Source: Rhodospirillum centenum SW
GTDB taxonomy: Bacteria > Pseudomonadota > Alphaproteobacteria > Azospirillales > Azospirillaceae
Assembly (NCBI RefSeq): GCF_000016185.1
Contig: NC_011420.2
Location: forward strand, 454,501 to 518,500
DNA length: 64,000 nucleotides
Direction of reading: 5' to 3'
Shown in pieces: positions 34,346-58,538 of this stretch (its first letter is position 1; each line of letters opens with the position of its first letter). A program made the position numbers and the translations under genes. Under the pieces are notes generated by a model. The model did no database searches. It saw only the letters and a list, made by a program, of their open reading frames with translations, and was not told the DNA's origin.

Positions 34346-34447
34346 GACCGGCTCCCGGCGGTTCTGGCGGCCGGGGTTATAGCCGGATCGCCCCGCTGCG
34401 TCAGCGGGAGAGAGGGGGCATCCGCACCGGCGGGCGGAACCGGCCCC

Positions 34448-34480: not shown

Positions 34481-34501
34481 AGGGGCATCGGAGGATCGAG
34501 C

Positions 34502-37507: not shown

Positions 37508-40500
37508 ATGGCCACCCGGACCCGAATCACATTTGGGGGCTACGTAATGACCATGCAGACCAAGCGGGCTGCCGCAGCCTTGCGGCGGCATCTGAACGTG
37601 TTGAAGCTGGGCACCGGCGCCATGGCGCTGGCTGTTGCCTCGGCCTGGGTCGTCCCGGCGGTCGCGCAGGAGACCACCTCCTCGATCCGCGGCCAGATCT
37701 TCACCGCTGAGGGTGAGCCCGCGGCCGGCGTGAACGTCGAGATCATCCACACCCCGTCGGGCACCCGGTCCTCGGCCGCGGTGAATTCCCAGGGCTCCTT
37801 CCTGGCGACGGGCCTGCGCATCGGCGGCCCCTACACCATCCGCTTCACCGGCAGCGGCATCCAGACCCAGCAGGTCGAGAACGTCTTCATCACCCTGGGC
37901 GAGCCGTTCTCCCTGGACCTGGTGCTCCAGAGCGGCCAGCAGCAGTCGGTCGAGGAGATCGTCGTCACCGGCCAGCGCACGACGGCCCTGGTGATCGGCT
38001 CCGGCACCCAGTTCGACCGCCGCGCGATCGAGAACACCCCGACCGCGACACGCGACCTCAAGGACGTGATCAAGCGCGACCCGAAGGTCAGCCTGGACCC
38101 GACCAACGGCAACGCGATCACCATCGCCGGCGCCAACAACCGCTTCAACAGCCTGACCGTCGACGGCGTGAAGCAGAACGACGATTTCGGCCTGAACGCG
38201 AACGGCTACCCGACGCAGCGCGTGCCGATCTCGCTGGACGCGATCGACCAGCTCTCCGTTCTGACGGCGCCTTATGATGTCGAGTACTCCGGCTTCACCG
38301 GCGGTACGGTCAACATCGTCACCAAGTCCGGCACGAACGAGTTCACCGGCTCGCTGTTCTACTACTACTCCGATGACAACCTGTCGGGCGATCGGAGCAA
38401 GGACAACAAGAACATCATCTCGCCGTACAAGGACAAGACGTACGGCGGCTCGATCGGCGGCCCGCTGATCGAGGACAAGCTGTTCTTCTTCGTGAACTAC
38501 GAGAAGTACAGCGGCGACAGCTCGATCTCCTACGGCCCCGAGGGGTCGGGCGCCGGCCAGACCGTGCGCGGCATCACCCAGGCCGAGTACGAGCAGGTCG
38601 CCGAGATCGCCCGCCGCGTCTATGGCTACGATGCCATGGGCCTGGGCGAGCCGCAGCCGGAGTCCGACGAGAAGATCCTGGCCAAGGTGGACTGGAACCT
38701 CACGGACGATCACCGTATCTCCGCCGCCTACCAGCGCGACGAGGGCAACAACTACGTCACCTCGTCCAACAACACCCGTCTGGGCTACGATTCGTACAGC
38801 TACGACCGTTCCCAGAAGATGGAGAGCTACTCGCTCCAGGTCTTCTCGGACTGGACCACCGATTTCTCGACCGAAGCCAAGGTCGGCTACAAGAAGGTGG
38901 ACAGCCTGCGGCCGACCACCTCGCCGCTGAACTTCTCCTCCATCATCATCCGCGATCCGGGTGGCAGCCAGTTCGTTCTCGGCACCGAGTCGAGCAGCCA
39001 GTCCAACGTCCTCGAAACCGAGACGCTGTCCTACAAGCTGAAGGGCACCTACCTGCTGGGCGACCACAAGGTCGAGGCCGGCTGGGAGCGTGACGATTAC
39101 GACTACTACAATCTGTTCGTGCAGCGCAGCCTCGGCGAGTTCGAGTTCAACACGATCGCCGATTTCGAGGCCCGCCGCGCCTCCCGCTTCCGCTACAACA
39201 GCGCTGCCGGGACGAACAACCCGCTCGATGCTGCCGCCGACTGGGGCTACAAGGTCGACAGCCTGTTCGTGCAGGACGAGTGGAACATCACCCCGGACTT
39301 CACGCTGACGGCCGGCCTGCGCTACGAGTACTACAGCTCTGACGACAAGCCGCGCCTGAACACGAACTTCGTCAGCCGCTACGGCTTCGGCAACGACGAG
39401 AACCTGGACGGCCGCGACCTCTGGCTGCCCCGCGCCGGCTTCAACTGGAAGGTCCAGGAAAGCACCACCCTGCGCGGCGGTGTCGGCCTGTTCAGCGCGC
39501 TCGGCCCGACCGTCTGGATGTCGAACAACTACAGCAACGACGGCATCACCCAGGTCGGTGTTGACATCCGCCGCGCCAACACGACGCCGGCCAACTCCAT
39601 CCTGAACAACGTCGATCCGAATTCCTCGGCGGTCGTGCCCGCGGCCGGCCAGCTCCTGGCCTCCGGTAGCGACAGCTTCGTCAACGCGCTGGACCCGGAC
39701 TTCAAGATCCCGTCCACTTGGCGCGCCAGCTTCGCGGTCGACCAGGTGTTCGACCTCGGCCCGCTCGGCAGCGACTACGTCGTCACCGCCGAGGCGATCT
39801 ACTCCCGCGTCAAGGAGGCGATCAGCTACACCGACCTGCGTCTGGTCAAGGTCGGCACCGCGCCGGACGGCCGTCCGATCTACCAGTCGCGCGCCGACGG
39901 CCGTCCGTCGATCGGCACCAACAGCGACCTCATGGTCACGAACACCGACGAGGGCGAAGGCGTCGTCCTGACCCTGGGTCTCGCCAAGACCTGGGAGACG
40001 GATTACGGCGACTTCGACCTGGGTGCGGGCTACGCCTACCAGAACATCGACGAAGTGCACGCGCTGACCAGCTCGGTCGCCTCGTCGAACTATGAGAACG
40101 TGGCCGTCAGCGATCCGAACGATCCGGGCTCCGACACCAGCGACTACGAGGTGAAGCACCGCTTCACCACGAGCGTGAGCTGGTCGAAGGCCTTCTTCGG
40201 CGACTTCGAGACGACGCTGAGCCTGTTCCACGAGAGCCGCGAGGGCCGGCCCTACAGCTACGCCTTCCGCTGCGGTTCCTCGGGCGGCAACGCCAACCCG
40301 TTCGGCGATCCGGCCTGCACCAACAACAACCGGTCCCGCCAGCTCTTCTACGTGCCGTCGGGTGCGAACGACCCGCTGGTCACCTACGCCCCCGGCTTCA
40401 GCTACGATCAGCTCCTGCCGTACCTGGAAGAGAACGGCCTGACCAAGTACGCCGGCCGTATCGCCCCGCGGAACGGCTTCACCAGCCCGTGGGTGCATAC

Positions 40501-40786
40501 CTTCGACCTGCACATCGCCCAGGAGATCCCGGGCCTGCTGGAAGGTCACCGCGGCGTCTTCACCTTCGACATCCGCAACCTCGGCAACATGCTGAACAAG
40601 GACTGGGGCCGACTGGAGCAGGTCTCCTTCTCCGCCGGCCGCACGGTCGATGTGCTGGAGGCCCGGATCGTGGACGGCAAGTACGTCTACGCCCCCGGTT
40701 CCGCCGGCCTGAAGGACCCGAACTCCCAGGTCAGCGCACGTTCCTCGGTGTGGAGCATCCTCGTCGGCGTCCGCTACGAGTTCTGA
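37508..40786 (+). CDS. Oar-like TonB-dependent receptor with carboxypeptidase-regulatory-like N-terminal domain
   Basis: Large outer-membrane receptor, 1092 residues. Signal peptide (LKLGTGAMALAVASAWVVPAVAQ) then a carboxypeptidase-regulatory-like beta domain (SSIRGQIFTAEGEPAAGVNVEIIHTPSG), the TonB box VEEIVVTGQR, a plug domain (RFNSLTVDGVKQNDDFGL; GFTGGTVNIVTKSGTNEF) and a long beta-barrel ending in VGVRYEF with a C-terminal Phe. This matches the OmpA-related (Oar) receptor class. Codon use is markedly biased to one preferred codon per residue, suggesting high expression. Start may be 37508 (GGAAG upstream) or MTMQTKRAA at 37547. Substrate unknown. Confidence 0.9.
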   Translation: MATRTRITFGGYVMTMQTKRAAAALRRHLNVLKLGTGAMALAVASAWVVPAVAQETTSSIRGQIFTAEGEPAAGVNVEIIHTPSGTRSSAAVNSQGSFLATGLRIGGPYTIRFTGSGIQTQQVENVFITLGEPFSLDLVLQSGQQQSVEEIVVTGQRTTALVIGSGTQFDRRAIENTPTATRDLKDVIKRDPKVSLDPTNGNAITIAGANNRFNSLTVDGVKQNDDFGLNANGYPTQRVPISLDAIDQLSVLTAPYDVEYSGFTGGTVNIVTKSGTNEFTGSLFYYYSDDNLSGDRSKDNKNIISPYKDKTYGGSIGGPLIEDKLFFFVNYEKYSGDSSISYGPEGSGAGQTVRGITQAEYEQVAEIARRVYGYDAMGLGEPQPESDEKILAKVDWNLTDDHRISAAYQRDEGNNYVTSSNNTRLGYDSYSYDRSQKMESYSLQVFSDWTTDFSTEAKVGYKKVDSLRPTTSPLNFSSIIIRDPGGSQFVLGTESSSQSNVLETETLSYKLKGTYLLGDHKVEAGWERDDYDYYNLFVQRSLGEFEFNTIADFEARRASRFRYNSAAGTNNPLDAAADWGYKVDSLFVQDEWNITPDFTLTAGLRYEYYSSDDKPRLNTNFVSRYGFGNDENLDGRDLWLPRAGFNWKVQESTTLRGGVGLFSALGPTVWMSNNYSNDGITQVGVDIRRANTTPANSILNNVDPNSSAVVPAAGQLLASGSDSFVNALDPDFKIPSTWRASFAVDQVFDLGPLGSDYVVTAEAIYSRVKEAISYTDLRLVKVGTAPDGRPIYQSRADGRPSIGTNSDLMVTNTDEGEGVVLTLGLAKTWETDYGDFDLGAGYAYQNIDEVHALTSSVASSNYENVAVSDPNDPGSDTSDYEVKHRFTTSVSWSKAFFGDFETTLSLFHESREGRPYSYAFRCGSSGGNANPFGDPACTNNNRSRQLFYVPSGANDPLVTYAPGFSYDQLLPYLEENGLTKYAGRIAPRNGFTSPWVHTFDLHIAQEIPGLLEGHRGVFTFDIRNLGNMLNKDWGRLEQVSFSAGRTVDVLEARIVDGKYVYAPGSAGLKDPNSQVSARSSVWSILVGVRYEF

Positions 40787-42208: not shown

Positions 42209-42688
42209 ATGTCAGCCTGCCCCTGCGGCTCCGGCCGTCCCCTTGATGCCTGCTGCGGCCCCCACCTGTCGGGCGCCGCCCTGCCCCCGACCGCGGAGGC
42301 GCTGATGCGCTCCCGCTACGCGGCCTATGCGACCGGGGCCGTGGACTATCTGGAGCAGACCCTGCTGCCGGAGACGCGCGGCGACTTCGACCGCGAGCAG
42401 ACCGCCAACTGGTCCGGCACCAGCGAATGGACGGGCCTGGAGGTGCGCGCCACGGAAAAGGGCGGGGCCGGCGACGAGGAGGGCTGGGTCGAATTCGTCG
42501 CCCGGTTCCGGACCGACGGCAAGGATTATGTCCACCACGAGACCAGCCGCTTCGTGCGCCGGGACGGGCGCTGGTTCTATGCCGACGGGATCATCGGCAC
42601 GAAGCCACGGTCTGCCCCCAAGGTGGGGCGCAACGACCCCTGCCCCTGCGGCAGCGGCCGCAAGTTCAAGAAGTGCTGCGGCGCCTGA
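42209..42688 (+). CDS. YchJ-family SEC-C motif protein
   Basis: 159-residue UPF0225/YchJ protein. It carries two SEC-C zinc motifs, one at each end: [14 protein letters not shown] near the N terminus and [19 protein letters not shown] at the C terminus, flanking an NTF2-like middle ([40 protein letters not shown]). Molecular role is unknown. RBS GGGAGAGATC. Confidence 0.92.
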
Positions 42689-42712
42689 GCGCTCCCTGAT
42701 CCACAGGGAAAC

Positions 42713-42737
42713 GCCCCCGCGGGAGAACCGCGGGGGC
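42713..42737. terminator. hairpin between convergent genes
   Basis: 10-bp perfect stem GCCCCCGCGG/CCGCGGGGGC with a GAGAA loop between the ends of the ychJ-like gene and the flavoprotein gene. No T-run follows on either strand. Confidence 0.5.
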
Positions 42738-42769
42738 ATCCGTCCGGAACAGCCGCCCGGCGCCGGGTC

Positions 42770-44974
42770 TCAGTCGAACAGGTCGCGGCGCAGGCGGCCT
42801 TCCGCGTCCCAGCGGGCGATCTGGCGGGTGGCCGCGTCCGCATCCATGCCGCGGTGACGCGCCAGGATGGTGTGCAGCGCCCGGTCGAGTCCGGCGCCCA
42901 GGGTGCTGGCCCGGCCGCAGGCGTAGAGCACGGCCCCCTTTTCGTCCATCCACTCCAGGAATTCCGCCCCGGCCTCGATCAGACGGTCGGGGGCGTAGCC
43001 ACCCTCCGGCTCACGCGAGAAGGCCGTATCGAGGCGGGCGAGCACGCCACGGCGCATCCAGCCCTCCAGCAGGTCGCCGTAGAAGAAGTCCGCCTTGCGC
43101 TTGCGGTTGCCGAACACCAGCCAGACCGGCTGCCGTGCTCCCGTCTCCTCGCGCTCGGCCAGGAAGCCGATGAAGGGGGCGATGCCGCAGCCGGCGCAGA
43201 GCAGGATCATGGGATGATCCGCCTCCGGCGACGGCGGGTTGAAGGCGGGATGCCGGCGCAGGGTCGCGTCCAGCCGGTCGCCCGGTCGCAGCCCGCGGCA
43301 GAGCAGACCCGACGCCTTGCCCAGGCTCTCGCTGCCGTCCGCCTCGCGCCGCCAGGTCAGACCGACCGTGAGCAACAGGTGCTCCGGCCCCTGGCCCGGC
43401 GCCGCCGAGACGGAATAGGGCCGTGGCGGCTCCCCCGGCCCCGGCGACACCATCAGCAGGTCGCCGGAGCGGTAGTCGAGCGGTCCGTCGCCCTGGAACA
43501 GCAGGCTCCAGGCCTCATGCGTATCCGGGTCTGCGGGGTCGTTGAGCTGCCGGCGGGAGACCAGGGTCAGGGACAGCGGGCGGTCGGCCTCCGGGGCCGC
43601 GACGCTGCCGGTATCCACGCCGATCCGGGTGCCCACCGCCGCCAGCCAGTCCCGCCACGGCCCCATGGCCTCCCCGTCAACGCAGGCCATGCCGACCGCT
43701 TCCACAGCACCCGCCGCCAGCAAAGCATCGCGCACCGCGATGCCGCCGGCGCAGTAGTCGGGATAGCGGCTGTCGCCCAGCGCCAGCAGCGCGAAAGGCA
43801 CCCCCTTGAGGTCCGTTCCCCGGAGCCTCTGCAGGAAGGCCCGGCCCTGGTCCGGAATCTCGCCCTCGCCGGTGGTGGACACGACCAGCAGGACCTGCCG
43901 GAAGTGCTTCAGTTCCTCCGGCGCCAGCGCGGCCAGCGCCGCACAGGACACCTTGCCGCCGCCGGCCGCGAGCGCGGCGGCCGTGGCTTCCGCAAGCCGC
44001 GCGGCGCGGCCGGTCTGGCTGGCGAAGGCGACAAGAATATCGGCATCCGCACCGCCCGACCGGCGGCGGGCCTGCCGCCAGCGCCGGACCCAGGGCAGCA
44101 CCCCGGTCACCGTCAGTCCGAGCAGGGCGACGGAGGCCAACAGGTTGACAAGGCCCGACCAGCCGCCGGCCCAGGTCCCCTCGTGCAGCTCATGGATCAG
44201 GCCCGGCCCGCCCTCCATCGGGGCCACGGCGCCGCCGCCGACCAGGTAGGCCACGCGGCCGTCGGGCGTGCCGGTGAGGAGCATCACCCCGTTGCCCATC
44301 CACCGCGCCCAGACGAGACCGGACAGGTCGGCGGCGGGCGCCGCCTGCTCCAGCGCGCGGGCGATGCTGGCCGGCGCGGCGGAGGGCGGGAGCTGCGGCC
44401 GGGCGGGACCGCCGATGTGCAGGATCATCAGCACCGCCGTCAGCGGCGTCAGCAGCACCAGCGGGAACAGCACCCAGCCGATGCCGCGGTGCCAGCCGGC
44501 GAGCGTGCGGTTCAGCCGCGGCCAGGCCAGGACGGGGCCGATGATGATCAGCAGGGTCATGGCCCAGGTGGCGATCTCCACCAGCAGGCCGGCCTCCAGC
44601 AGCAGGTCCTCATGGAACCGCTTGACCAGCCCGAAGAAATCGGCGCCCTGCTGCGGCGCGGACACGGCCGCCCCCGTCGCCAGATCATAGGTGTCGCGCA
44701 CGCCGCCGGGCTTGGCGAGGACAAGCGTATGCCCGTCGCCGCCGATGACCGCCATGCGCGCGGCACCCCCTGGATCGACCCGGTCGAGCAGCCCGACCAG
44801 GGCCGCCGTATCGACCGGCGCAGGGGCCGCGGCGTCACGGGGAACCGCCTCCAGGATCGGCTTCACCGCCAGCACGGCGCCGGACAGGATGATCAGCACG
44901 AACAGCGGCGTCAGGATCAGGGCGACCCAGCGGTGGGCGATCAGCAGGATGGATTTCAGGTCATGAGCGGACAT
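42770..44974 (-). CDS. PepSY-membrane / flavodoxin / NAD(P)H-reductase fusion
   Basis: 734-residue membrane flavoprotein. Domains in order: a PepSY-type membrane part with about four helices and His residues (LLIAHRWVALILTPLF; WLFPLV-like near 190; residues 1-300); a flavodoxin domain (ADILVAFASQTGRAARLAE, VVSTTGEGEIPDQG, ALGDSRY; about 310-450); an FAD domain (RPYSVSAAPG) and an NAD(P) domain (PMILLCAGCGIAPFIGFL, LVFGNR, YACGRAS). It resembles the diflavin reductase (CysJ/P450-reductase) plan fused to a heme-type membrane anchor. It should pass NAD(P)H electrons across or into the membrane. Place at the end of the SHP/DHC gene cluster suggests it feeds those cytochromes; the acceptor is an inference. 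Confidence 0.85.
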   Translation of the reverse strand: MSAHDLKSILLIAHRWVALILTPLFVLIILSGAVLAVKPILEAVPRDAAAPAPVDTAALVGLLDRVDPGGAARMAVIGGDGHTLVLAKPGGVRDTYDLATGAAVSAPQQGADFFGLVKRFHEDLLLEAGLLVEIATWAMTLLIIIGPVLAWPRLNRTLAGWHRGIGWVLFPLVLLTPLTAVLMILHIGGPARPQLPPSAAPASIARALEQAAPAADLSGLVWARWMGNGVMLLTGTPDGRVAYLVGGGAVAPMEGGPGLIHELHEGTWAGGWSGLVNLLASVALLGLTVTGVLPWVRRWRQARRRSGGADADILVAFASQTGRAARLAEATAAALAAGGGKVSCAALAALAPEELKHFRQVLLVVSTTGEGEIPDQGRAFLQRLRGTDLKGVPFALLALGDSRYPDYCAGGIAVRDALLAAGAVEAVGMACVDGEAMGPWRDWLAAVGTRIGVDTGSVAAPEADRPLSLTLVSRRQLNDPADPDTHEAWSLLFQGDGPLDYRSGDLLMVSPGPGEPPRPYSVSAAPGQGPEHLLLTVGLTWRREADGSESLGKASGLLCRGLRPGDRLDATLRRHPAFNPPSPEADHPMILLCAGCGIAPFIGFLAEREETGARQPVWLVFGNRKRKADFFYGDLLEGWMRRGVLARLDTAFSREPEGGYAPDRLIEAGAEFLEWMDEKGAVLYACGRASTLGAGLDRALHTILARHRGMDADAATRQIARWDAEGRLRRDLFD

Positions 44975-45059
44975 CGGCCGCCTCCCTTGCAGGCGCGATG
45001 TCGCGGCGGTATCCGCCGACGGCGTGGCGCAGTGTTGGTGACGGCAGTGTCGGTGATGC

Positions 45060-45097
45060 AGGAAAGACTCCCCGGCGCCGGAGATCCGGCGCCGGGG
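45060..45097 (-). terminator. terminator after the GMGPGQ-repeat gene
   Basis: Perfect 12-bp stem CCCCGGCGCCGG/CCGGCGCCGGGG with a 4-nt loop; on the minus strand it is followed by GAGTCTTTCC. It separates the repeat-protein gene from the flavoprotein gene 85 bp further on. Confidence 0.65.
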
Positions 45098-45121
45098 TGA
45101 CCCTCATCTGAACCGGCAGGC

Positions 45122-45673
45122 TTACTGCCCGCCGGTCCTGTCGGTCTGTGCGGCGGGCGGCGGCGAGGCCGGCGGCTGCGCGGCGGGCGCCTGCCCCCTC
45201 ATGCCCGGCCCCATGCCCTGACCGGGACCCATTCCCTGGCCGGGGCCCATGCCCTGACCCGGCCCCATGCCCTGACCCATGCCGCGGCCCTGGCCCATCC
45301 CCTGGCCCGGGCCCATCCCCTGGCCGGGAGCCATGCCCTGGCCGGGACCCATGCCACGCCCCTGGCCCATGCCCCGGGCGGGCATGGCGGGCGGTTCGTC
45401 GGGCAGGGTGACGCCCTGCTCCTTGGCCCGGGCCTGCATCCGGGCATGGTGCTCCTGCCGGATCTGCTCCCGTTCCTCCATGCTCCGCGCCTGCCGCATG
45501 CGGCTGCGCAGATCCATCCGCTCCTGCGGCGTCATCAACTGACTGCCGTAGAGGGGGGTATCGTCCGCTTCCGCCACCGGGGGAGACGCCGGCGGCTGGG
45601 ACTGGGCCATGGCGACCGATGCCGCAGGAAGCGACAGGGAGAGCGCCAGGAACGACGCTGTCAACACGCGCAT
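45122..45673 (-). CDS. exported protein with GMGPGQ repeats
   Basis: 183-residue exported protein. A signal peptide (LTASFLALSLSLPAASVAMAQ) is followed by a charged helical part (LMTPQERMDLRSRMRQARSMEEREQ, residues 46-82), like other small periplasmic proteins of metal or redox loci. Residues 101-160 are ten units based on GMGPGQ or GMGQGR, then a Pro/Ala tail. Met-rich repeats of this kind can bind copper, but that is only a guess here. The start follows GGAGGCAATCCC. Confidence 0.75.
   Translation of the reverse strand: MRVLTASFLALSLSLPAASVAMAQSQPPASPPVAEADDTPLYGSQLMTPQERMDLRSRMRQARSMEEREQIRQEHHARMQARAKEQGVTLPDEPPAMPARGMGQGRGMGPGQGMAPGQGMGPGQGMGQGRGMGQGMGPGQGMGPGQGMGPGQGMGPGMRGQAPAAQPPASPPPAAQTDRTGGQ
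45194..45373 (-). repeat. 18-bp coding repeats (GMGPGQ units)
   Basis: About ten imperfect units of 18 bp (one of 12 bp) inside the gene above, encoding GMGPGQ, GMAPGQ or GMGQGR. Unit number is likely to vary between strains by slippage. Confidence 0.85.
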
Positions 45674-45810
45674 GGGATTGCCTCCGTTCTTCGGGGTTGG
45701 ACCCGGCGGGAAGGGTCGCACTCAGAACAGCCGCCGGGCCTTGAGATCTGTCAGGAAACGGTCTCCCTGCGACAGAATAACCAGCACAGGGCAACCGGCT
45801 TACTCCGGGC

Positions 45811-46272
45811 TCATTCATCCTCGAACACCCCCTGCCCCGCCCGGTCGTGGCAGGCCTCGCAGTTGGCCTTGGAGCGGATGTGGGGGCGTTCCCAGATCTG
45901 GGGCCGGAAATCGTGCTCGCGCAGCCACCAGCGCTGCTCGGTGATGCGGATCGTATCGGTATCGCCCCGACGTGCGGCATTCGCGGTCAGATAGGCGCGG
46001 ATGTCCGCTGCCACCTCCGCCGGCAGGCTGGCATCCTCGCCGAAATGACGGGGCAGCGTGTCCATGAGGCGGTCCCAGCCCGCGGCGGGCAGCAGGGCCG
46101 CGGGAAAGGCCATGTGGCACTGGCCGCATTCCTTGAGGGTCGCTGCATGGGTGACGGGGCGGGCCGCCCCGTCACGGTCGTGCCCGCCGCGGTCGGCAAG
46201 GGAGGGGCTGGCGAAGAGGGGGGCGGCGGCCGCGATCAGGGCGGCGGCGGCGAAGGCATGGCGCAGGCTCAT
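45811..46272 (-). CDS. diheme cytochrome c (DHC type)
   Basis: 153-residue periplasmic cytochrome with a signal peptide (AAAALIAAAAPLFASPSLA) and two heme motifs, CGQCH and CEACH. The stretch LKECGQCHMAFPAALLPAAGW and ...TEQRWWLREHDF match the diheme cytochrome c (DHC) of the SHP operon known in Rhodobacter sphaeroides and Shewanella. DHC is the electron donor of SHP. No clear SD precedes the chosen ATG. Confidence 0.87.
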   Translation of the reverse strand: MSLRHAFAAAALIAAAAPLFASPSLADRGGHDRDGAARPVTHAATLKECGQCHMAFPAALLPAAGWDRLMDTLPRHFGEDASLPAEVAADIRAYLTANAARRGDTDTIRITEQRWWLREHDFRPQIWERPHIRSKANCEACHDRAGQGVFEDE

Positions 46273-46339
46273 GGGAGAGGGTCCTGTATCCTGAAAGGCT
46301 GGCGGGAAGGCGGGCGCTGCGGTGGACGCGCGGCCGGCC

Positions 46340-46804
46340 TTACTGGCTGGCGAGGAAGGTGATGTAGTCGCCCTTCTCCTGGGCACTGCACTCGCGGCCC
46401 AGCACGCCCGGGCAGTCGCGGCGGAAATGCTTTTCGACGTAGTCGGCATCCGTGAACCGCCAGGGACTGACCGAAACGGCGACCGGCTTGATCGCCCGGC
46501 CGGTCTTGCGGTGCTGGCCCGTGGCACGGGGGTCCGCCGTATGGCAGGCGGCGCAGCCGTCAGCCTCGGCCCCCGCCACCTGACCGAGATAGACCGCCCG
46601 GCCGCGTTCGGCGGAGAAGCCGGTGAAGGCGGGATCCTGGGCCTTCGCCTGCGCCGCATAGGAGGCCAGAAGGGCATCGCGGCTGGCGGCGTCGTCACCC
46701 GCGGCCAGGGCCGGGCCGGCGACCAGCAGAAAGGCGGCGGCGACCAGCGGACGGAGCCGGCGGGAACGGACGGAAGCAGCGGAAGGGAAAGCGTCGTTGG
46801 TCAT
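46340..46804 (-). CDS. SHP-type oxygen-binding cytochrome c (DUF1924)
   Basis: 154-residue secreted monoheme cytochrome with signal peptide ([16 protein letters not shown]) and one heme motif, CAACH. The later HFRRDCPGVLGRECSAQEKGDYITFL has the two extra cysteines that form a disulfide in SHP (sphaeroides heme protein), which binds O2 and NO through an unusual Asn ligand. Assignment rests on the pattern and the DHC and cytochrome b neighbours. RBS GAAGG. Confidence 0.85.
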   Translation of the reverse strand: MTNDAFPSAASVRSRRLRPLVAAAFLLVAGPALAAGDDAASRDALLASYAAQAKAQDPAFTGFSAERGRAVYLGQVAGAEADGCAACHTADPRATGQHRKTGRAIKPVAVSVSPWRFTDADYVEKHFRRDCPGVLGRECSAQEKGDYITFLASQ

Positions 46805-46978
46805 GGGAGCCTTCGGGGAAGCGGTGGCAAGGGTCGTCCGGCCAACCTGAACGCCGGCTGAACGGGCAGGTCCGCCGCGGGGCGGTCCGGTGGAAAGGGA
46901 GGGGTGGAAAGGCCTGGAGAACCGGGCCGTCCCGGACGGAGGCGCGACCGGGCGCCGCGCCCCCTTTGCCGTCCGGGG

Positions 46979-47572
46979 TCAGGCGTGTTTGCGCCCGGTG
47001 AGCATGGCGCGGACGAGATTTTCCCGGTGCATCAGACCCGTCAGCAGGACGCCGGCGACATGCAGGCCGACCAGGACGAGGATTCCGGTGGCGGCCGCCT
47101 CGTGGATCTCCTCCAGGTCATGCTCCCGGATGAAATCGCCGGGAACGCCGTACTGGAGGCCAACGCCGGTCGCCGTGGTGAGCAGCAGGCAGGCGAGCAG
47201 GGCGACGATCATGGCCCCGCCGGCCGGCGTGTGGCCGATGTAGCGCCGGGCATGACCGCCGATCAGATCGCGGCAGTAGGCCAGAAAGCCTGCCGGCGTC
47301 GGCACGAAGTCGTCGAAGCGGGCATGCGGGCTGCCGGCCAGCCCCCAGAAGGAGCGCACGGCCACGATGGTCAGCACCGTGAAGCCGGCCGCGAGGTGCG
47401 CCGTGGAAGCGTCGCCCGAGCTGATCCAGGCGACCGCGACAGCCAGGGCGAGCGTCCAGTGCGAGACCCGCACCAGCGGGTCCCAGACCCGGACGCTGGC
47501 CGGGGGCGGCTCGGCAGCATCCGGAGTGATGGCCTCTGACATCACAGTGTCAGGCTGGTTGATGGTGGTCAT
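46979..47572 (-). CDS. cytochrome b561-type membrane protein
   Basis: 197-residue b-type cytochrome with four membrane helices and candidate heme His residues (RVSHWTLALAVAVAWISSG, HLAAGFTVLTIVAVRSFWG, LEEIHEAAATGILVLVGLHVAGVL). In the known SHP operons such a protein passes quinol electrons to DHC. The start MTTINQPD overlaps the upstream PepSY gene by one base (TGATG). Confidence 0.87.
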   Translation of the reverse strand: MTTINQPDTVMSEAITPDAAEPPPASVRVWDPLVRVSHWTLALAVAVAWISSGDASTAHLAAGFTVLTIVAVRSFWGLAGSPHARFDDFVPTPAGFLAYCRDLIGGHARRYIGHTPAGGAMIVALLACLLLTTATGVGLQYGVPGDFIREHDLEEIHEAAATGILVLVGLHVAGVLLTGLMHRENLVRAMLTGRKHA

Positions 47573-47919
47573 CAGCGGTGCCCCCACCCGTCCTTGCCGC
47601 TGCGCTCTTCCTTCAGGATGTCGCCGGTCCGTGCATCGACATAGAGTTCGCGGCGGTTGCCGTTCGCGTCGCGCGCCTTGATCTCGTAGATGGCGCCGGT
47701 CTTGCGCTCGACCTCGCTGACGTCGGTGTAGCCCTGCTTCGCCAGCAGGTCGATGAGCTGGGGAATGGGCATGGGCGCCGGAGCCTGGGAGGAGACCGCC
47801 GGGGAAGCGGTGGTGGTCGCCGGACCGGTGTCCTGAAGAATCTCCTTGGCGACGGCATAGCCGCCGACCAGGACGGAACCGGCCAGCAGGGTCGCGGCGG
47901 TGAGTTTGGCATAGATCAT
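47572..47919 (-). CDS. exported PepSY-domain protein
   Basis: 115-residue protein with an N-terminal signal or anchor (AKLTAATLLAGSVLVGGYAVA) and one PepSY domain (LIDLLAKQGYTDVSEVERKTGAIYEIKARDANGNRRELYVDARTGDIL in pieces). Start is fixed by GGAGGACGACC. First gene of the cytochrome b-SHP-DHC unit and divergent from a second PepSY gene and a two-component system. Confidence 0.83.
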   Translation of the reverse strand: MIYAKLTAATLLAGSVLVGGYAVAKEILQDTGPATTTASPAVSSQAPAPMPIPQLIDLLAKQGYTDVSEVERKTGAIYEIKARDANGNRRELYVDARTGDILKEERSGKDGWGHR

Positions 47920-48040
47920 GGTCGTCCTCCGGGGGATGGGGGAAAGGTTGCGATGCCGTGGAGACTGCCCGGGGTCGCCTGAACCTGCTCTGAACACTCC
48001 GTTCAGCGTGCGTTCAGCATCAGAGGTGCTGAGTGGAGGC

Positions 48041-48418
48041 ATGCAGAAGAAGACGATCCTCGCCCTCACGGGCCTTGCCCTCGGCGGCTTTCTCCTGACC
48101 GCCGCCCCGCTTCCCCTGCGCGCGGACGACGACCATCGCCGCGATCACGACCGCGCGCGCGAGGCCGTGCTGCGGGGGGAGGTACTGCCGCTGCGCGACA
48201 TCCTTGAGCGCGCGGAGGCGGAGTTCCCCGGACGCCTGCTGGAGGCCGAACTGGAAGACGACCACGGCCGCCTGACCTATGAAGTGAAGCTGCTGACGGA
48301 GGACGGGCGGGTGCTGGAACTGGTCTATGACGCGCGCGACGGCACCCTTCTCGGCGTCGAGGGCCGCGACCTGGAACGGCGCCGTGGGCATCGCGGCTGG
48401 CGGGAGCAGGACCGATGA
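48041..48418 (+). CDS. exported PepSY-domain protein
   Basis: 125-residue protein with signal peptide (ALTGLALGGFLLTAAPLPLRA) and a PepSY domain (LRDILERAEAEFPGRLLEAELE, LTYEVKLLTEDGRVLELVYDARDGTLLGVEG in pieces). It overlaps the response regulator start by 4 bp, so it may act as a periplasmic input for the kinase, as suggested for similar loci. Confidence 0.84.
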   Translation: MQKKTILALTGLALGGFLLTAAPLPLRADDDHRRDHDRAREAVLRGEVLPLRDILERAEAEFPGRLLEAELEDDHGRLTYEVKLLTEDGRVLELVYDARDGTLLGVEGRDLERRRGHRGWREQDR

Positions 48419-49074
48419 GGGTGCTGGTCGCGGAGGATGACGAGGCCCTGCGCCGCCAGCTCCGGGACGCGCTGGCAGCCTCCGGCTATGCGGTGGATGA
48501 AGCGCCCGACGGGGAAGAGGCGGCCTTCCTGGGAGAGACCGAACCCTATGACGCCGTGGTCCTGGACCTGGGCCTGCCGGTCCGGGACGGTCTGTCCGCC
48601 CTGCGCGGCTGGCGCCAGCAGGGCATCGTCACGCCGGTGCTGATCCTGACGGCGCGCGGCACCTGGCAGGAGAAGGTGGAGGGCATCGACGCCGGCGCCG
48701 ACGACTACCTGGCCAAGCCCTTCCGGATGGAGGAACTGCTGGCCCGGCTGCGCGCCCTGATCCGCCGGGCCGGCGGCCATGCCGCGGCGGACCTCCGGTG
48801 CGGCCCGGTGCTGCTGGATACCCGCACCGGCCGGGTCAGCGTGGACGGTCGTCTCGTCTCCCTGACCGCCCACGAGTTGAAGGTGCTGGACTATCTGATG
48901 CACCACCAGGGCCGCGTCGTCTCGCGCACCGAGCTGACCGAGCATGTCTACGCCCAGGATTTCGACCGCGACAGCAACACGATCGAAGTCTTCGTCGGCC
49001 GGCTGCGCCGCAAGCTGGGGGTGGACGTGATCCGCACGGAGCGCGGGCTGGGCTACCGCATGGATGCGGGGTGA
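48415..49074 (+). CDS. OmpR-family response regulator
   Basis: 219-residue regulator of the QseB/PmrA type. Receiver domain with AEDDE, phospho-acceptor Asp51 (VVLDLGLPVRDG) and KPF; winged-helix domain ending VDVIRTERGLGYRM. It shares a TGATG junction with the kinase gene. The target is likely the divergent cytochrome operon, by position. Confidence 0.93.
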   Translation: MRVLVAEDDEALRRQLRDALAASGYAVDEAPDGEEAAFLGETEPYDAVVLDLGLPVRDGLSALRGWRQQGIVTPVLILTARGTWQEKVEGIDAGADDYLAKPFRMEELLARLRALIRRAGGHAAADLRCGPVLLDTRTGRVSVDGRLVSLTAHELKVLDYLMHHQGRVVSRTELTEHVYAQDFDRDSNTIEVFVGRLRRKLGVDVIRTERGLGYRMDAG

Positions 49075-50441
49075 TGGCGTCGGGATCGCTGAACGGACGC
49101 CTGCTGGCGCTGGCCGCGGTCTGGGTCACGGCCGCCCTGGTGATCGCCGGGATCTTCCTCACCGACCTGTTCCGCCGCCATGCGGAGGCGGATCTCGCCC
49201 GGCGCATGGGCCACCAGCTTGACGAGCTGGCGGCGGCGCTGGAGATCGGCGCCGACGGCCGGCTGGCTGTCACCCGCGACCCCGGCGATCCCCGCTTCCA
49301 CCGGCCCCTGTCGGGGCTCTACTGGGAGGTGATGGTCGGCGATGCGGAGGTGCTGCGCTCCCGCTCGCTCTGGGACCAGACCCTGGCGCTGCCGGTGGAC
49401 CGGCCGGCAAGCGGTGAACTGCACCGGCATGAGCTGACCGGCCCGGCCGGTGAGCGTCTGGTCGCCTGGGAGCGCACGCTGGAGCTTTCCGGGATCGACC
49501 TGCCGGTGCGCGTGGCCGTGATCGCCGATGCGGCCGATATTCAGGCGGCGACAGCCGACTTCTCTCAGGTGCTGGCCCTGTCGCTGGCGATCCTGGCCGC
49601 AGGGCTGATGGCGGCGGCGCTGGTCCAGGTGCGGCTCGGCCTCGTGCCGCTGCGCCGCATGCGTGCGGCCCTGGCGCAACTGCGGGCGGGCACGGCGACG
49701 CGGCTGGAGGGACGCTTCCCCGACGAGGTGCAGCCCCTGGCCGACGACCTGAACCAGCTCCTGACCGAAAACGCGGCCATGGTGGAGCGGGCCCGGGCCG
49801 AAGCGGCCGATCTGGCGCACGCCCTGAAGACCCCCCTCGCCGTCATCGCCAATGCCGTCTCCGGCGGCGGGGAGGATGCCGCCGGCGTCGTCGCCCGCGA
49901 GGCCGACCGGATGCAGCGCCAGATCGAACGGCATCTGGCCCGCGCCCGGGCCGCTGCGGCCGGGCGCACCCTGGGCAGTGCCGGAAGCCCTGCACTGGCG
50001 ACCCTGCGCCCGCTGGCCGCGGCGGTGCAGCGGCTCCATGCCGACCGCGGCATCCGGATCGATCTTTCCGGCGACCCCGCCATCCGCATCCGGGGCGATG
50101 CGCAGGACGTGCAGGAGATGGCGGGCAACCTGATCGACAACGCCGCCAAGTGGGGCCGGTCGCTGGTCCGGGTGGGCGTCACCCGGATCGGGACGGTTGC
50201 CGTCGTGACGGTGGAGGATGACGGCCCCGGCATCCCGCCCGGACGGCGGGCCGTCCTGCCGGAACGTGGCCGCCGGCTGGACGAGACGGTTCCCGGAACG
50301 GGCCTGGGGCTTGCCATCAGCGACGAACTGGCCCGCCTGCATGGCGGCACCCTCCGTCTCGACGACTCCCCGCTGGGGGGACTGCGGGTCACGTTGGAAC
50401 TGCCGGCCGTGCCGCCACGGGTCCCCGGCAACGCCCCCTGA
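49074..50441 (+). CDS. sensor histidine kinase
   Basis: 455-residue membrane kinase. Two membrane helices ([39 protein letters not shown]) flank a periplasmic domain of about 130 residues. HAMP-like linker, phospho-acceptor His in [18 protein letters not shown]-box [11 protein letters not shown]1 VEDDGPGIP and G2 GTGLGLAIS follow. This is the PhoQ/QseC-like type. It is paired with the response regulator at 48415. Confidence 0.92.
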
Positions 50442-50682
50442 ACCCGCCGGTCAAGGCGAACCGGCGCCTGAAGACCCCTTTCCTGGAAATGTCCGGAAGT
50501 ACAGGTCTTCGACAGCCCACCCCACCCCGGAGGATTTCCCCCTTCTGTACAGGGCCAAGTATATACCGTCGGACAGGATGCCCTTCCCCCCACTGTCCCT
50601 TCGTCATTCCGGGGACAATCTTAGGCCAATCTTAAGGGGCGATGCGCCTCAATCGGGCATCCAATCCGGGGGGAGTCCTGCC

Positions 50683-52365
50683 ATGCCGCGTCTTGTCGAT
50701 GTTTCCATCCGTATCCGAATCTTCGCCGCCTTCGGGCTGGTCCTGTTCGTCACCCTGGCCCTGGGCGGCTTCGGCCTGGTCCAGCTCTCCAGGATCGACG
50801 ATGCCGCGGACGTCGTGGTGGGCAACTCTCTGCCCTCCGTTTCCGAGAGCAACGCCATCCTGAAAGGGGTCCTCAACTACCGCCGCCATCAGGCGGCGAT
50901 GATGCTGAACGATGATCCGCAGGTCCGTGCCGAGCGCAGGCAGCGTCTTGTCGAAATGTCGGCCGATCTCGCCGCCCGGCGCAAGGCCTATGAGGCCCTG
51001 ATCACCACGGACCGCGACGCCTTCGAGCGGTTCGACCGGGCCTGGGCCCGGTTCCTGCCGCTGGCGGCAGAGATCGACTCCCTGATGGAGGCGGGGAAGC
51101 GGGACGAGTATCTGGCGATCTACAACGGCCCGGCCCGGCAGGCGCTGGAAGAGGCTCTGGTCGCCCTGGAAGAGGCCGTCGGGATCAATGAGCGCGACGG
51201 CAAGGACGGGGGCGATGCCATCATCGCGGCCAGGGAGAGCGCAACCTTCGGCACCATCGTCGCCCTGCTGGCCGCCGCCGGCCTGTCCATCGGCGCCGGC
51301 CTTCTCACCGTCACCACCGTGGCCGGTCCGGTCAACCGCCTGACCGACACGATGAACCGGCTCAGCCGCCGCGAACTGACGGCAGCCGTGGACGGTACGG
51401 ACCGCAAGGACGAGATCGGCGCCATGGCCCGGGCCGTGCAGGTCTTCAAGGACGGGCTGATCGAGGCCGAGCGCCTGACCGCCGCCCAGAAGGCGGAAGA
51501 GAAGGCCAAGGCCGCCCGCACCGCCCGGATCGACAGCCTGATCCGCAGCTTCGACGGCACCTCCAGCGAATCGCTGCGCGCCGTCGCCGCCGCCGCCACC
51601 GAACTGGACGCCACCGCCCAGAGCATGGCCGCCATCGCGGACGAGACCGGGCGTCAGGCCAGCTCCGCCGCCTCGGCCGCGGAGGAGACCACGGCCAACG
51701 TGCAGACCGTCGCCTCGGCGGCGGAGGAGATGGCCGCCTCCATCCAGGAGATCAACCGGCAGGTCAACCGTGCCAAGGGCGTGGCCCAGCGCGCGGCGGA
51801 GAGCGTGCAGGAGACGAACGTCACGGTCGAGGGCCTGACCGCCGCGACACAGAAGATCGGCGAGGTGGTCAGCCTGATCCAGGCGATCGCGGCCCAGACC
51901 AACCTGCTGGCGCTGAACGCCACGATCGAGGCGGCCCGCGCCGGCGAAGCCGGCAAGGGCTTCGCCGTCGTCGCCAGCGAGGTGAAGAACCTCGCCGGCC
52001 AGACCGCCAAGGCGACGGAGGAGATCGCTGCCCAGATCTCTGCCGTGCAGAAGGTGTCGGCCGAGACCTCCACCGCGATCCAGTCCATCGGCACCATCAT
52101 CGAGGAGGTCAACGGCATCTCCGCCACCATCGCCGCGGCGATGGAGCAGCAGGGCGCCTCGACCAACGAGATCAGCCGCAACGTGACCCAGGCCGCGGCC
52201 GGCACGCAGGAGGTGTCCGCCAACATCGGTCAGGTGACGCAGGTCACCGGCCAGGCCGGCGCCGCCGCGACCCAGGTGCTGGGCGCCGCCGGCGAGCTGG
52301 CCCGGCAGTCGGAAACCCTCAAGCAGGAGGTCGAACGCTTCCTCGCCGCCATCAAGGCCGCCTGA
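50683..52365 (+). CDS. methyl-accepting chemotaxis protein
   Basis: 560-residue chemoreceptor. Membrane helix 1 ([21 protein letters not shown]), a helical periplasmic sensor of about 160 residues, membrane helix 2 ([23 protein letters not shown]), HAMP, and the signalling hairpin with [37 protein letters not shown] in pieces. Sensor type resembles the four-helix-bundle class. No CheW-binding C-terminal pentapeptide. Start MPRLVDVS is behind GGGGGAG. Confidence 0.94.
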
Positions 52366-52453: not shown

Positions 52454-53665
52454 TCACGAATAGACGGGCGCGAAGTTCCCCGCCTGTCCGGTCGCCCGGC
52501 CGGCATCCCAGAAGGGGGAGAAGGCCCGCAACCGGGCGACGATGGGCGGCACGGCGGCGATCACCCGGTCAACCTCGGCCTCCGTCGTCTCCCGCGAGAG
52601 GGAGAAGCGGATGGCACCGTGCGCCGCCGTAAAGGGCACGTCCATGGCGCGCAGGACATGGCTCGGCTCCAGGCTGCCACTGGTGCAGGCGGAGCCCGAC
52701 GAGGCGGCGATCCCCGCCTTGTCCAGCAGCAGCAGAATGGCCTCCCCCTCGATGAACTCGAAGGCGATGGTGCTGGTGTTGGGCACCCGTTCGGCCTCTC
52801 CGCCGACCGCGAAGCAGTGTCCGACCGCGCCCAGGATGCCGTGCTCCAGCCGGTCGCGCAGGGTGCGGATGCGGTCCGCGTCCTCGGCCACGGAGCGGGC
52901 GGCAAGCTCGGCCGCCATGCCCAGCCCGACGATGCCGGGCACGTTCTCCGTTCCCGCCCGGCGGCCGCGCTCCTGCCCGCCGCCGCGCAGCAGGGGCCGG
53001 AAGCGCGTGCCCTTGCGGACATAGAGCGCGCCGATCCCCTTCGGTCCGTGCAGCTTGTGCGCCGACAGCGACAGCATGTCGATGCCGGTCCCGGCGACGG
53101 AGACAGGCAGCTTGCCGACCGCCTGCACGGCGTCGGTGTGGAAGGTGGCTCCCACCTCCTTCGCCAGTTCGGCCAGTTCGGGGACCGGATTGACGACTCC
53201 CGTCTCGTTGTTCGCCCACATCAGGCTGACCAGCGCCACATCGGGGCGCAGCGCCCGGCGGTAGGCTTCCAGGTCCAGGCGCCCGTGCCGGTCCACGGGC
53301 ATGATGCGGACCTCGATGCCGTCCGTCTTCTCCAGATGTTCCAGCACGCCCAGGACGGCATGGTGCTCCACGGCGGAGGTGACGACCGCCCGCCGCTCCG
53401 GCTGCGCCCGCAGGGCCGAGTGGATGGCCGTGCTGTTGGCCTCCGTCGCCCCGCTGAGGAAGAGGATCTCGTGGTCGTGGGCGGCGCCGACCAGGGCCTG
53501 CACCTGTCCCCGCGCCGTGCGGATCGCGGCCCCGACCGCCTCTCCGAAGCGGTGCATGGAGGAAGGATTGCCGAACAGCTCCGTGAAGCAGGGCAGCATC
53601 GCCTCCAGCACGCGGGGGTCGGTGCGGGTGGTCGCGTTGTTGTCGAGATAGACCGGGGTGTCCAT
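52454..53665 (-). CDS. nifS: cysteine desulfurase NifS
   Basis: PLP enzyme that supplies sulfur for nitrogenase Fe-S clusters. 403 residues of the NifS/IscS class I fold: VYLDNNATTRTDPRVLEAM, PLP lysine in LSAHKLHGPKGIGALYVRKG, and the mobile active Cys in ASSGSACTSGSLEPSHVL. RBS GGGGAGAGGCC before MDTPVYLDNN. It is 17 bp after nifU and last in the hesB-nifU-nifS unit. Confidence 0.96.
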   Translation of the reverse strand: MDTPVYLDNNATTRTDPRVLEAMLPCFTELFGNPSSMHRFGEAVGAAIRTARGQVQALVGAAHDHEILFLSGATEANSTAIHSALRAQPERRAVVTSAVEHHAVLGVLEHLEKTDGIEVRIMPVDRHGRLDLEAYRRALRPDVALVSLMWANNETGVVNPVPELAELAKEVGATFHTDAVQAVGKLPVSVAGTGIDMLSLSAHKLHGPKGIGALYVRKGTRFRPLLRGGGQERGRRAGTENVPGIVGLGMAAELAARSVAEDADRIRTLRDRLEHGILGAVGHCFAVGGEAERVPNTSTIAFEFIEGEAILLLLDKAGIAASSGSACTSGSLEPSHVLRAMDVPFTAAHGAIRFSLSRETTEAEVDRVIAAVPPIVARLRAFSPFWDAGRATGQAGNFAPVYS

Positions 53666-53682
53666 GGCCTCTCCCCTCCCCT

Positions 53683-54663
53683 TCAGACCGGAATCACGAT
53701 GACGGGGGCGCCCAGCTTCTCCGTCACCCGGGCGGCAAGGCCATCGACGGTCATCCGGGCCATGCGGCAGCCGGCGCAGGCGCCGGTGAGCCGGACATGG
53801 ACATGGCGGCCGTCCACATCGACCAGCTCGCAGTCGCCGCCGTCGGCCAGGAAGGTCGGGCGGGCCTCGGCGATGGCCTCCTCGATCAGGCGGATGCGCT
53901 GCACCAGGGTCAGCTTCGGCCCCGGCGTCACGGGGGCCGGCGCCAGCGCCGGCGGCGCGGGTTTCGCGGGGGGCGCCGTGGGAACCGCCTTCACCGGCGG
54001 CGACAGGGAGACGAGCGCGCCGGCCGGCTTCAGCGCGGGCCGGGCCGGGGCGCCGGCGAAGGCCTCCGCCGCGCCGAGCAGGCCCTCGGCCACCATCTCG
54101 GCGTTCACCGCGGCCAGCACCTCCTCCATCCGCTCGTTGCAGGCGCCGCAGCTCCCGCCCGCCTTGGTGTAGAAGGTGACCTGCTCCATGCTGGTCAGCC
54201 GGTTCGTCCGCACCGCCCGGCGCAGCATCGGCTCGTCCACGGCGAAGCACTTGCAGATCAGGGCGCCCTCGTCGTGGTCGTCGTCGATCGCCACGCCACG
54301 GTAGTGGGCGATGGCGGCGTGCAGCGCCTCCGCCCCCATGACGGAGCAGTGCATCTTCTGCGCCGGCAGCCCGCCGAGGAAGGCGGCGATGTCCTGGTTG
54401 GTCAGCCGGGCGGCGTCGTCCAGGGTGCGGCCGATGACCAGTTCGGTCAGGGCGGAGGAGGAGGCGATGGCCGAGCCGCAGCCGAAGGTCTGGAAGCGGG
54501 CGTCCTGGATCACCTCCGTCGCCGGGTCCACCTTCAGCATCAGCTTCAGCGCATCGCCGCAGGTCAGCGACCCCACCTCGCCCACCGCGTTGGCGTCGGC
54601 CAGGACGCCCGCGTTCTTCGGCTCGAAGAAGTACGCCTTGACCTTGTCCGTGTAGTCCCACAT
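53683..54663 (-). CDS. nifU: Fe-S scaffold NifU
   Basis: Three-domain scaffold for nitrogenase Fe-S clusters, 326 residues. N-terminal IscU-like domain ([49 protein letters not shown]), a central [2Fe-2S] domain ([29 protein letters not shown]) and a C-terminal NFU domain ([30 protein letters not shown]). A Pro/Ala-rich linker near residues 185-225 joins the last two. Confidence 0.97.
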
Positions 54664-54768
54664 TGGCCGGTTGCCTCCCGCGTGCCCGTTCGCGTCATCG
54701 CCCGTTGCCGGCGATCCCAGCCCGGCAGGGATCCCGCCGGATGGGGGTGCCGGCCCGTGGCAGGATCG

Positions 54769-55092
54769 TCAGTGGCAGGATCTCGTGGAACAGGTGCAGC
54801 CGCCGCCGGGGGCGGCGTTCTCGAAGACGAAGCCCGCCCCCTCCAGCCGCTCGACGAAATCCACCGTCACCGCGTCGAGCAGCGGCACGGAATCCTGATC
54901 GACATAGACGTCCAGCCCCTCGAACCGGATCACGGCGTCGGCGTCGCCCGGCCCCTCCTCCAGTTGCAGTCCGAACTGGAGACCGGCGCAACCCGCCGGG
55001 CGCACCATGATCCTGAGGCCGGCCGCCTGTCCGGCGGCGGCCTCCACGGCCGTGCGGGCCGCCTGTACCGCGCTGTCCGTGAGTGCCACCAT
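54769..55092 (-). CDS. HesB/IscA-like nif-associated Fe-S protein
   Basis: 107-residue A-type Fe-S carrier (IscA-nif). The three conserved cysteines are in RPAGCAGLQFGLQLEEGP and the C-terminal GGGCTCSTRSCH, with an unusual extra Cys near the end. Start MVALTDSAV is behind GGAGGTTTGCG. First gene of the nifU-nifS unit, 57 bp downstream of a sigma-54 promoter. Confidence 0.92.
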   Translation of the reverse strand: MVALTDSAVQAARTAVEAAAGQAAGLRIMVRPAGCAGLQFGLQLEEGPGDADAVIRFEGLDVYVDQDSVPLLDAVTVDFVERLEGAGFVFENAAPGGGCTCSTRSCH

Positions 55093-55148
55093 CGCAAACC
55101 TCCGTCCCGTGTCAGGGGCGTCCGTACCGCCCCGGGCAAGGACGTGAG

Positions 55149-55163
55149 GCAATCGGCGTGCCA
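55149..55163 (-). promoter_or_regulatory. sigma-54 (-24/-12) promoter of hesB-nifU-nifS
   Basis: Minus-strand TGGCAC-N5-TTGC, an exact match to the RpoN core consensus; the -12 box is 57 bp from the start codon. Confidence 0.88.
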
Positions 55164-55198
55164 GAGGCGAACCCCAGGGAATCCGCGGGGTCCGGCAG

Positions 55199-55250
55199 TG
55201 TCGGCAACGCGACAACGGGGCCTTCGCCACCGGATGTCGGATTCCCGACA
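55199..55250. promoter_or_regulatory. two NifA upstream activator sites
   Basis: TGTCGGCAACGCGACA (55199-55214) and TGTCGGATTCCCGACA (55235-55250) both fit TGT-N10-ACA exactly, 36 bp apart. They lie between the hesB-side and the nifQ-side sigma-54 promoters and could serve both. Confidence 0.88.
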
Positions 55251-55310
55251 GCGACACAGGTCGCGGCGCGGCGCCGGTGGAACTGCGCCCGCTCCGGGGG
55301 CGCAGCCCCC

Positions 55311-55325
55311 CGGCCCGCCGCTTGC
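55311..55325 (+). promoter_or_regulatory. probable sigma-54 promoter of nifQ
   Basis: CGGCCC-N5-TTGC on the plus strand, with GG and GC invariant dinucleotides at -24/-12 spacing, 42 bp from the nifQ start. Two mismatches in the -24 box against TGGCAC suggest it is weaker than the divergent promoter. Confidence 0.65.
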
Positions 55326-55366
55326 AGGGTCCCCGGCGGAGACGACGACGCGGGGGGAGACCGACC

Positions 55367-55948: not shown

Positions 55949-55977
55949 CGGAGCCCCCCGTGCCCCCGCGCCTGTCC

Positions 55978-58525: not shown

Positions 58526-58538
58526 GGTCATCCCCACC

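Follow-up and report, generated by a model that had tools for sequence, protein, structure and literature searches.

A 39-bp operator and a rare PepSY_TM flavoprotein at the SHP-DHC-cytochrome b locus of Rhodospirillum centenum: a candidate locus-specific regulon

The SHP locus of Rhodospirillum centenum SW encodes SHP (DUF1924), the diheme cytochrome c DHC, a membrane cytochrome b, two PepSY proteins, a two-component system, a GMGPGQ-repeat protein and a PepSY_TM flavoprotein. It was analysed within a window of 64,000 nucleotides (the whole stretch, NC_011420.2, positions 454,501-518,500). The reading given here, with moderate confidence, is a regulon specific to this locus that has two electron branches, in which a single operator ties optional accessories to an already known locus. 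The core, PepSY-cytochrome b-SHP-DHC divergent from PepSY-response regulator-SK1 (the sensor kinase), is already published for R. centenum (Meyer, Kyndt and Cusanovich 2010; PMC2909971). New relative to earlier work are the 39-bp operator between the divergent operons, the link of the flavoprotein to SHP, the operator between the flavoprotein and PepSY-response regulator-SK1 genes in the order of a second genome, G249, and the presence of repeat-protein relatives at the flavoprotein's place in another genome. Neither the operator nor the flavoprotein-SHP link was reported in the titles and abstract openings searched, a coverage with most subscription journals outside it. Passages of two further R. 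centenum papers said nothing on the locus.

Operator of the SHP locus

The two PepSY genes are separated by 121 bp, and in this gap lies the operator, four half-sites (GTTCAG) with an 11-bp period. With up to 4 mismatches allowed, 39 matches to the 39-bp element were found in 36 of 106 SHP loci (1.8 Mb, window included); 15 controls with permuted half-sites gave 0 matches each across the same loci. Shorter boxes of two half-sites number 8 in the window at up to 2 mismatches (2.88 expected). Exactly 3 perfect boxes occur in the R. centenum genome (4.36 Mb), all in the SHP locus. G249 and its relative G463 (75% complete) have 2 perfect boxes each, all within their SHP-flavoprotein loci. The element is present in 31 of the 52 fetched SHP loci that have PepSY2. 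Placement of the operator is near-exclusive to SHP loci. It is a candidate site for the response regulator of the locus, which would bind it.

The 105 SHP loci other than the window were collected as 55 + 10 + 40, the last 40 chosen for variety out of 91 places. Two of the 10 (L138, L139) were fetched owing to flavoprotein matches; two weak SHP matches (G196, G334) were left out of the set. At least 7 kb was available on both sides of 77 loci, less than 7 kb on one side of 28. One species is possibly in both genome collections behind the counts.

Element copies were also seen beside other genes. In G014 a CcmE-like OB-fold gene (L071:10208-10723; PF03100 over the cut-off) heads the cytochrome side of the operator. 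A second copy in G005 precedes a similar CcmE-like gene elsewhere in the genome (L253:8070-8558; PF03100 below the cut-off). In G038 a second element (L058:1964-2002) precedes a small gene, near a resolvase-like gene.

PepSY_TM flavoprotein

The flavoprotein has a PepSY_TM domain (PF03929, 88.6 bits, cut-off 28.8) and a CysJ-like C-terminal half. Residues H14, H121, H162 and H264 are invariant among 4 orthologues and stand beside four transmembrane-like segments (hydropathy); a fifth hydrophobic window (587-607) falls in the reductase domain. The four histidines are placed as a two-heme ladder, and heme binding is predicted.

Within the family of the window (82 genomes) the full-length flavoprotein was found only in the window. 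A search of 385 genomes of the class gave one other full-length relative, in G249 (47% identity, E 1e-181); its gene and that of SHP share a contig and a strand, 2.9 kb apart. Among 398 genomes of the phylum no further full-length relative was found at E ≤ 1e-50; in both searches scoring was limited to at most 2 candidates per genome. In the order of G249 (7 genomes) the flavoprotein is present in 3 genomes and SHP in the same 3, the other 4 having neither. Each of the 3 has the flavoprotein gene divergently oriented to PepSY-response regulator-kinase, with the 39-bp element between (1, 1 and 3 mismatches), and cytochrome b-SHP-DHC runs toward the kinase from the opposite side. A second element precedes cytochrome b in G249 and G463; the contig of G464 ends within cytochrome b. 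The four full-length proteins form a clade (support 100/99, midpoint root) in a tree to which L118 and L151 gave no row, in which several rows are partial, and in which long branches are flagged, that of the window included. The full-length flavoprotein is thus linked to SHP in 4 of the 4 genomes in which it was found and in two lineages, with gene order and orientation differing between the window and the order of G249. The earlier impression that the flavoprotein never accompanies SHP elsewhere held for the first 55 SHP loci (0 found) and was overturned by G249 and its order. The flavoprotein is a rare accessory of SHP loci.

In the plasmid collection 153 records have flavoprotein relatives; among the 30 records listed, no match covers more than 58% of the query, and the annotation of 28 is PepSY protein plus FAD:protein FMN transferase. 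G080 has another PepSY_TM-flavodoxin-reductase (L119:3263-10256), between genes resembling DUF2271 and ApbE by eye and adjoining a different two-component pair.

In R. centenum the flavoprotein gene follows the repeat-protein gene after a gap of 147 bp. Terminator-like sites in 42600-50800 number 5 (1.8 expected), and the hairpin at 45097-45070 in this gap has the longest stem. The sole box-like match in the gap (up to 3 mismatches, right strand) is the degenerate box with 2 mismatches. Control of the flavoprotein by this box in R. centenum was rejected, the box being 122 bp distant and past the hairpin. Three transcripts are likeliest: PepSY1-cytochrome b; SHP-DHC-repeat protein, which would stop at the hairpin; and one for the flavoprotein by itself. 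The last is predicted because of the hairpin and because the only box, with 2 mismatches, lies on its far side.

GMGPGQ-repeat protein

The gene has a repeat array found by TRF and a codon-position GC of 0.76/0.60/0.88. Its N-terminus has relatives of 61-70% identity in G080, G078 and G035. The Met/Gly-rich tail of the protein is shorter or absent in relatives. No Pfam match to Spy/CpxP was obtained; a sub-threshold Spy match covers residues 2-41 (E 0.0079, 16.5 bits, cut-off 174). Relatives are present in 11 of the 82 family genomes; 6 of the 11 have SHP, and in 3 of these (G000, G048, G051) the two stand together. Two records of the plasmid collection also contain relatives.

The closest relatives adjoin TauE/SafE, ArsR-type and metallo-beta-lactamase-fold genes (profiles for L102 only), not the SHP neighbourhood. 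More distant relatives occur at 3 of the 105 SHP loci. In G051 (L077) the relative stands directly after DHC; in G048 (L069) two such genes lie opposite PepSY-response regulator-kinase across a 39-bp element; in G757 (L197) the relative is 3.4 kb from SHP, beside a kinase of another type. The protein is small and predicted to be secreted, and is an optional companion of the SHP regulon. Relatives of both it and the flavoprotein therefore recur at SHP loci of other genomes, so that the lack of co-occurrence by which the earlier note would have been refuted is not seen.

The neighbourhood of the closest relative (L102:4859-13386) has ArsR, TauE/SafE, metallo-beta-lactamase-fold, cytochrome c, DUF305, thioredoxin-like and DsrE-like genes, and is possibly a sulfur-stress cluster.

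Gene content of the locus and SHP ligands

Features are listed in Table 1. Minus-strand transcription runs in the order PepSY1, cytochrome b, SHP, DHC, GMGPGQ-repeat protein, PepSY_TM-flavodoxin-reductase; the divergent plus-strand order is PepSY2, response regulator, sensor kinase. The two small PepSY proteins have PepSY_2 and PepSY domains (Pfam). SHP has one CxxCH motif and DHC two. NCBIfam profiles gave no family for SHP, DHC or either PepSY protein at E ≤ 0.01.

Table 1. Features of the SHP locus of R. centenum, in window positions
Feature	Position	Strand	Basis
PepSY_TM-flavodoxin-NAD(P)H reductase membrane flavoprotein, 734 aa	42770-44974	-	Pfam PepSY_TM + Flavodoxin_1 + NAD_binding_1
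Terminator-like hairpin, 12 G-C pairs, T-rich tail, between repeat-protein stop and flavoprotein start	45070-45097	-	Consensus match only
Degenerate operator box, 2 mismatches, 122 bp before flavoprotein start, beyond the hairpin; function doubtful	45097-45113	-	Motif match
GMGPGQ-repeat protein, predicted secreted, 183 aa from ATG	45122-45673	-	Open reading frame, repeats, relatives
DHC, diheme cytochrome c	45811-46272	-	PF09626, E 2.4e-30; two CxxCH
SHP (DUF1924), H84/D88 form	46340-46804	-	PF09086, E 6.1e-35; PDB 1dw0, E 2.2e-19; ligand positions
Perfect two-half-site operator box, 42 bp before SHP	46847-46863	-	Motif match
Cytochrome b561-type membrane cytochrome b	46979-47572	-	PF01292, E 3.8e-20
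PepSY protein 1 (Orf1 in Meyer et al.), heading the cytochrome operon	47572-47919	-	PF13670/PF03413
Operator CTGAAC-N5-CTGAAC-N5-GTTCAG-N5-GTTCAG, 39 bp, 0 mismatches	47979-48017	.	Between divergent operons
PepSY protein 2 (second Orf1), heading the regulatory operon	48041-48418	+	PF03413
Response regulator, OmpR/PmrA-class	48415-49074	+	Pfam and NCBIfam profiles
Sensor kinase, SK1 type of Meyer et al. (SGLYWE, RSRSLWD)	49071-50441	+	HAMP-HisKA-HATPase (Pfam), motifs

All genes named in the earlier note (SHP, DHC, cytochrome b, PepSY, two-component, flavoprotein and repeat-protein) are present by Pfam and open reading frame checks. The 734-residue membrane NAD(P)H flavoprotein is there with its three domains, and the GMGPGQ-repeat protein is a real gene by its repeat array, codon-position GC and relatives in three other genomes. 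The note had the PepSY proteins bracket the cytochrome genes, which is not so: since one PepSY gene heads each divergent operon, the two flank the shared promoter region. The operator in that region (47979-48017) is absent from the note. The note's reading is partly supported: its proposal of a locus with its own sensor is supported, the idea being already present in PMC2909971. The features of the SK1-Orf1 module are found, with SGLYWE and RSRSLWD in the kinase and PepSY2 adjoining; SGVYWQ-like and RSRSLWD motifs are both present in 11 of 11 kinases aligned.

Meyer et al. described Orf1-cytochrome b-SHP-DHC in R. centenum and Rhodospirillum rubrum, with a second, homologous Orf1 at the head of the divergent Orf1-response regulator-SK1 operon in both. 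A divergent promoter was suggested, and an electron path from quinol through cytochrome b and DHC to SHP was proposed. The locus agrees with that description in gene content, divergent Orf1 genes, SK1 motifs and the D88 and H84 substitutions. It differs in the operator, which the available text of PMC2909971 does not describe; the words flavodoxin, reductase and NADPH are absent from that text.

The window SHP has H84/D88 in place of the sixth ligand Asn88 and Trp84. This form is unique among 106 SHPs compared, in which the residue 84/88 pairs are W/N (61), R/D (36), Q/D (7), N/H (1) and H/D (1, the window); D88 is present in 44. Meyer et al. reported Asn88 as the sixth ligand in 33 of 42 species, gave H84/D88 for R. 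centenum, and doubted O2 binding by the reduced protein for D88 forms. As D88 forms are included there as members, the window SHP stays a family member. At the other SHP loci DHC is present in 103 of 105 and cytochrome b in 99 of 105. SHP also occurs in 13 records of the plasmid collection. Trees of SHP, DHC and the response regulator are poorly resolved around the window; the kinase tree joins the window kinase to Caenispirillum (support 92/95).

Comparison with known PepSY systems

In DbfQRS of Vibrio cholerae (PMC12714742) and BqsPQRS/CarRS of Pseudomonas aeruginosa (PMC12666569, PMC4682146) a PepSY gene stands beside genes of a PmrA-class response regulator and a kinase, as here. In contrast to such modules, the present system would regulate cytochromes at its own locus. 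Two PepSY genes precede the BqsRS genes, and the BqsR operator is a direct repeat, TTAAG-N6-TTAAG, with an 11-bp period (P. aeruginosa BqsRS literature). The repeat here is TTCAG-N6-TTCAG, with the same period. The TTAAG form of the operator was not found here, and the idea that the sensor is a BqsS orthologue was considered and rejected. An Exx(x)E motif, put forward for kinases that sense iron, is not conserved in the aligned SK1 kinases, with one match in the window kinase; this weighs against a simple analogy with BqsS.

Characterised PepSY_TM proteins are ferrisiderophore reductases, and heme-ladder histidines are described for FoxB (PMC13038864). The flavoprotein has in common with FoxB, CrpH and others the PepSY_TM domain and four conserved histidines on two membrane faces. 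It differs in its fusion to flavodoxin and CysJ-like reductase domains and in its link to SHP. No siderophore or TonB receptor gene was found in the flavoprotein operon. About 2 kb away, beyond a YchJ/SEC-C gene, a TonB-receptor-like gene (37508-40786) was noted on the opposite strand. PepSY-like flavinylation clusters (PMC8238504) also have a PepSY_TM protein, in some cases with a NAD-binding domain, as here; unlike in those clusters, neither ApbE nor DUF2271 adjoins the window flavoprotein, its neighbours being the repeat protein and the YchJ/SEC-C gene.

Proposed mechanism and alternatives

The proposed regulon would work as follows. PepSY2 and SK1 would sense a periplasmic metal or redox signal. 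The regulator, on the four in-phase half-sites, would switch on both operons, PepSY-cytochrome b-SHP-DHC and its own. One electron branch would be the published path (PMC2909971) from quinol through cytochrome b and DHC to SHP. The other, optional and present in few species, would pass electrons from NADPH through FAD, FMN and the two b-hemes of PepSY_TM to the periplasm, where the acceptor would most likely be an oxidised metal complex and less likely DHC or SHP directly. The GMGPGQ protein would be a second optional periplasmic accessory. Gene content, the operator, its near-exclusive placement and the recurrence of both accessories across it in other genomes are observed; signal, cofactors, electron acceptors and regulator binding are predicted.

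A metal or iron signal would fit data from Allochromatium vinosum grown on pyrite versus sulfide (PMC11267869). SHP (Alvin_0022) has a log2 change of 7.10, second in the table; values are 5.54 for DHC, 5.13 for cytochrome b561, 4.15 for the response regulator, 2.18 for the kinase and 5.32 for Alvin_0024, 'membrane protein-like', which by position is probably Orf1. The run Alvin_0013-0026, with FieF and Czc genes, is among the most pyrite-induced, and metal-transport genes of the A. vinosum SHP cluster are described in PMC2909971. Pyrite induction and the link to a PepSY_TM reductase would, by analogy, point to periplasmic metal or redox stress.

Several observations weigh against this regulon. 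At up to 4 mismatches, 21 of the 52 PepSY2 loci lack the element, all of them outside the family of the window and that of G249. In G005 the SHP-locus boxes have 1 mismatch each and the sole perfect box is elsewhere. Exx(x)E has one match in the window kinase (ERTLE) and none in 8 of the 11 aligned kinases. The window flavoprotein stands behind a strong predicted terminator and has at best a degenerate box. Of 105 SHP loci, 3 have the flavoprotein (1 of 103 without the two fetched owing to it); when only the 77 loci with 7 kb or more on each side are counted, it is present in 1. Its two lineages may not be independent, because SHP of the order of G249 groups with Azospirillaceae SHPs (80/86 with L080).

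The earlier note had suggested that a single module could carry electrons to SHP from NAD(P)H or quinol. In that arrangement NADPH electrons would cross from the flavoprotein, by its two membrane hemes, to DHC and SHP, giving the chain a further entry point next to quinol and cytochrome b. Its co-occurrence with SHP without exception in the order of G249 (3 with both, 4 with neither), the same operator and an architecture that fits electron export speak for such a chain. It is nevertheless considered rather unlikely: 102 of 105 SHP loci are without the flavoprotein while 99 have their own cytochrome b, the promoters are separate in the order of G249 and the transcript is probably separate in R. 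centenum, and known PepSY_TM acceptors are metal chelates (PMC13038864). The closest relatives of the repeat protein, moreover, stand in another neighbourhood. Reduction of a metal complex is favoured over that of DHC or SHP, since the flavoprotein is rare at SHP loci and cytochrome b almost always present; electron flow from flavoprotein to SHP is no more probable than a metal-reductase branch.

Less probable still is that the neighbourhood reflects descent, the flavoprotein having travelled once with the SHP locus as an ordinary PepSY_TM metal or siderophore reductase without a functional tie. Flavoprotein rarity, the terminator and weak box in R. centenum and the shared ancestry that the two SHP loci may have would fit this. 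Against it, the linkage is kept in 4 of 4 genomes despite the differing gene order and orientation in two lineages, and in the order of G249 the operator lies directly at the flavoprotein promoter. A locus-specific regulon with two branches is the reading retained.

Other genes of the window

A DarT-DarG toxin-antitoxin pair lies at 57491-59195 (-; DarT PF14487, E 5e-67; DarG by PADLOC, E 3e-141); DarT falls where the GC content of the window is lowest (58.5% at 58001-60000). A heavy-metal P-type ATPase (33698-36960, +) has HMA, E1-E2 ATPase and HAD domains; its apparent C-terminal part (36625-36960, by eye) is in another frame, which may reflect an interrupted gene or a sequence error. A molybdopterin oxidoreductase with a twin-arginine (TAT) signal, NapA-like by eye, is encoded at 29857-32382 (+), about 14 kb from SHP. 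NifU/NifS- and ferredoxin-like genes, recognised by eye at 52454-56271 (-), form a nitrogen-fixation neighbourhood about 2 kb past the kinase, with a chemotaxis receptor (50629-52365, Pfam) between.

Implications

It is a tentative possibility that SHP counts among the outputs of a private redox regulon of the periplasm, fed both by quinol through cytochrome b and by cytosolic NADPH through a two-heme PepSY_TM diflavin reductase. If this were true, the NADPH entrance would free periplasmic heme chemistry (with O2, NO, peroxide or metal) from dependence on the quinone pool. The locus-specific operator is a handle in its own right: it predicts which genes respond, and one reporter could reveal the inducing signal. 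The private operator would thereby make the function of the poorly understood SHP cluster easier to test.

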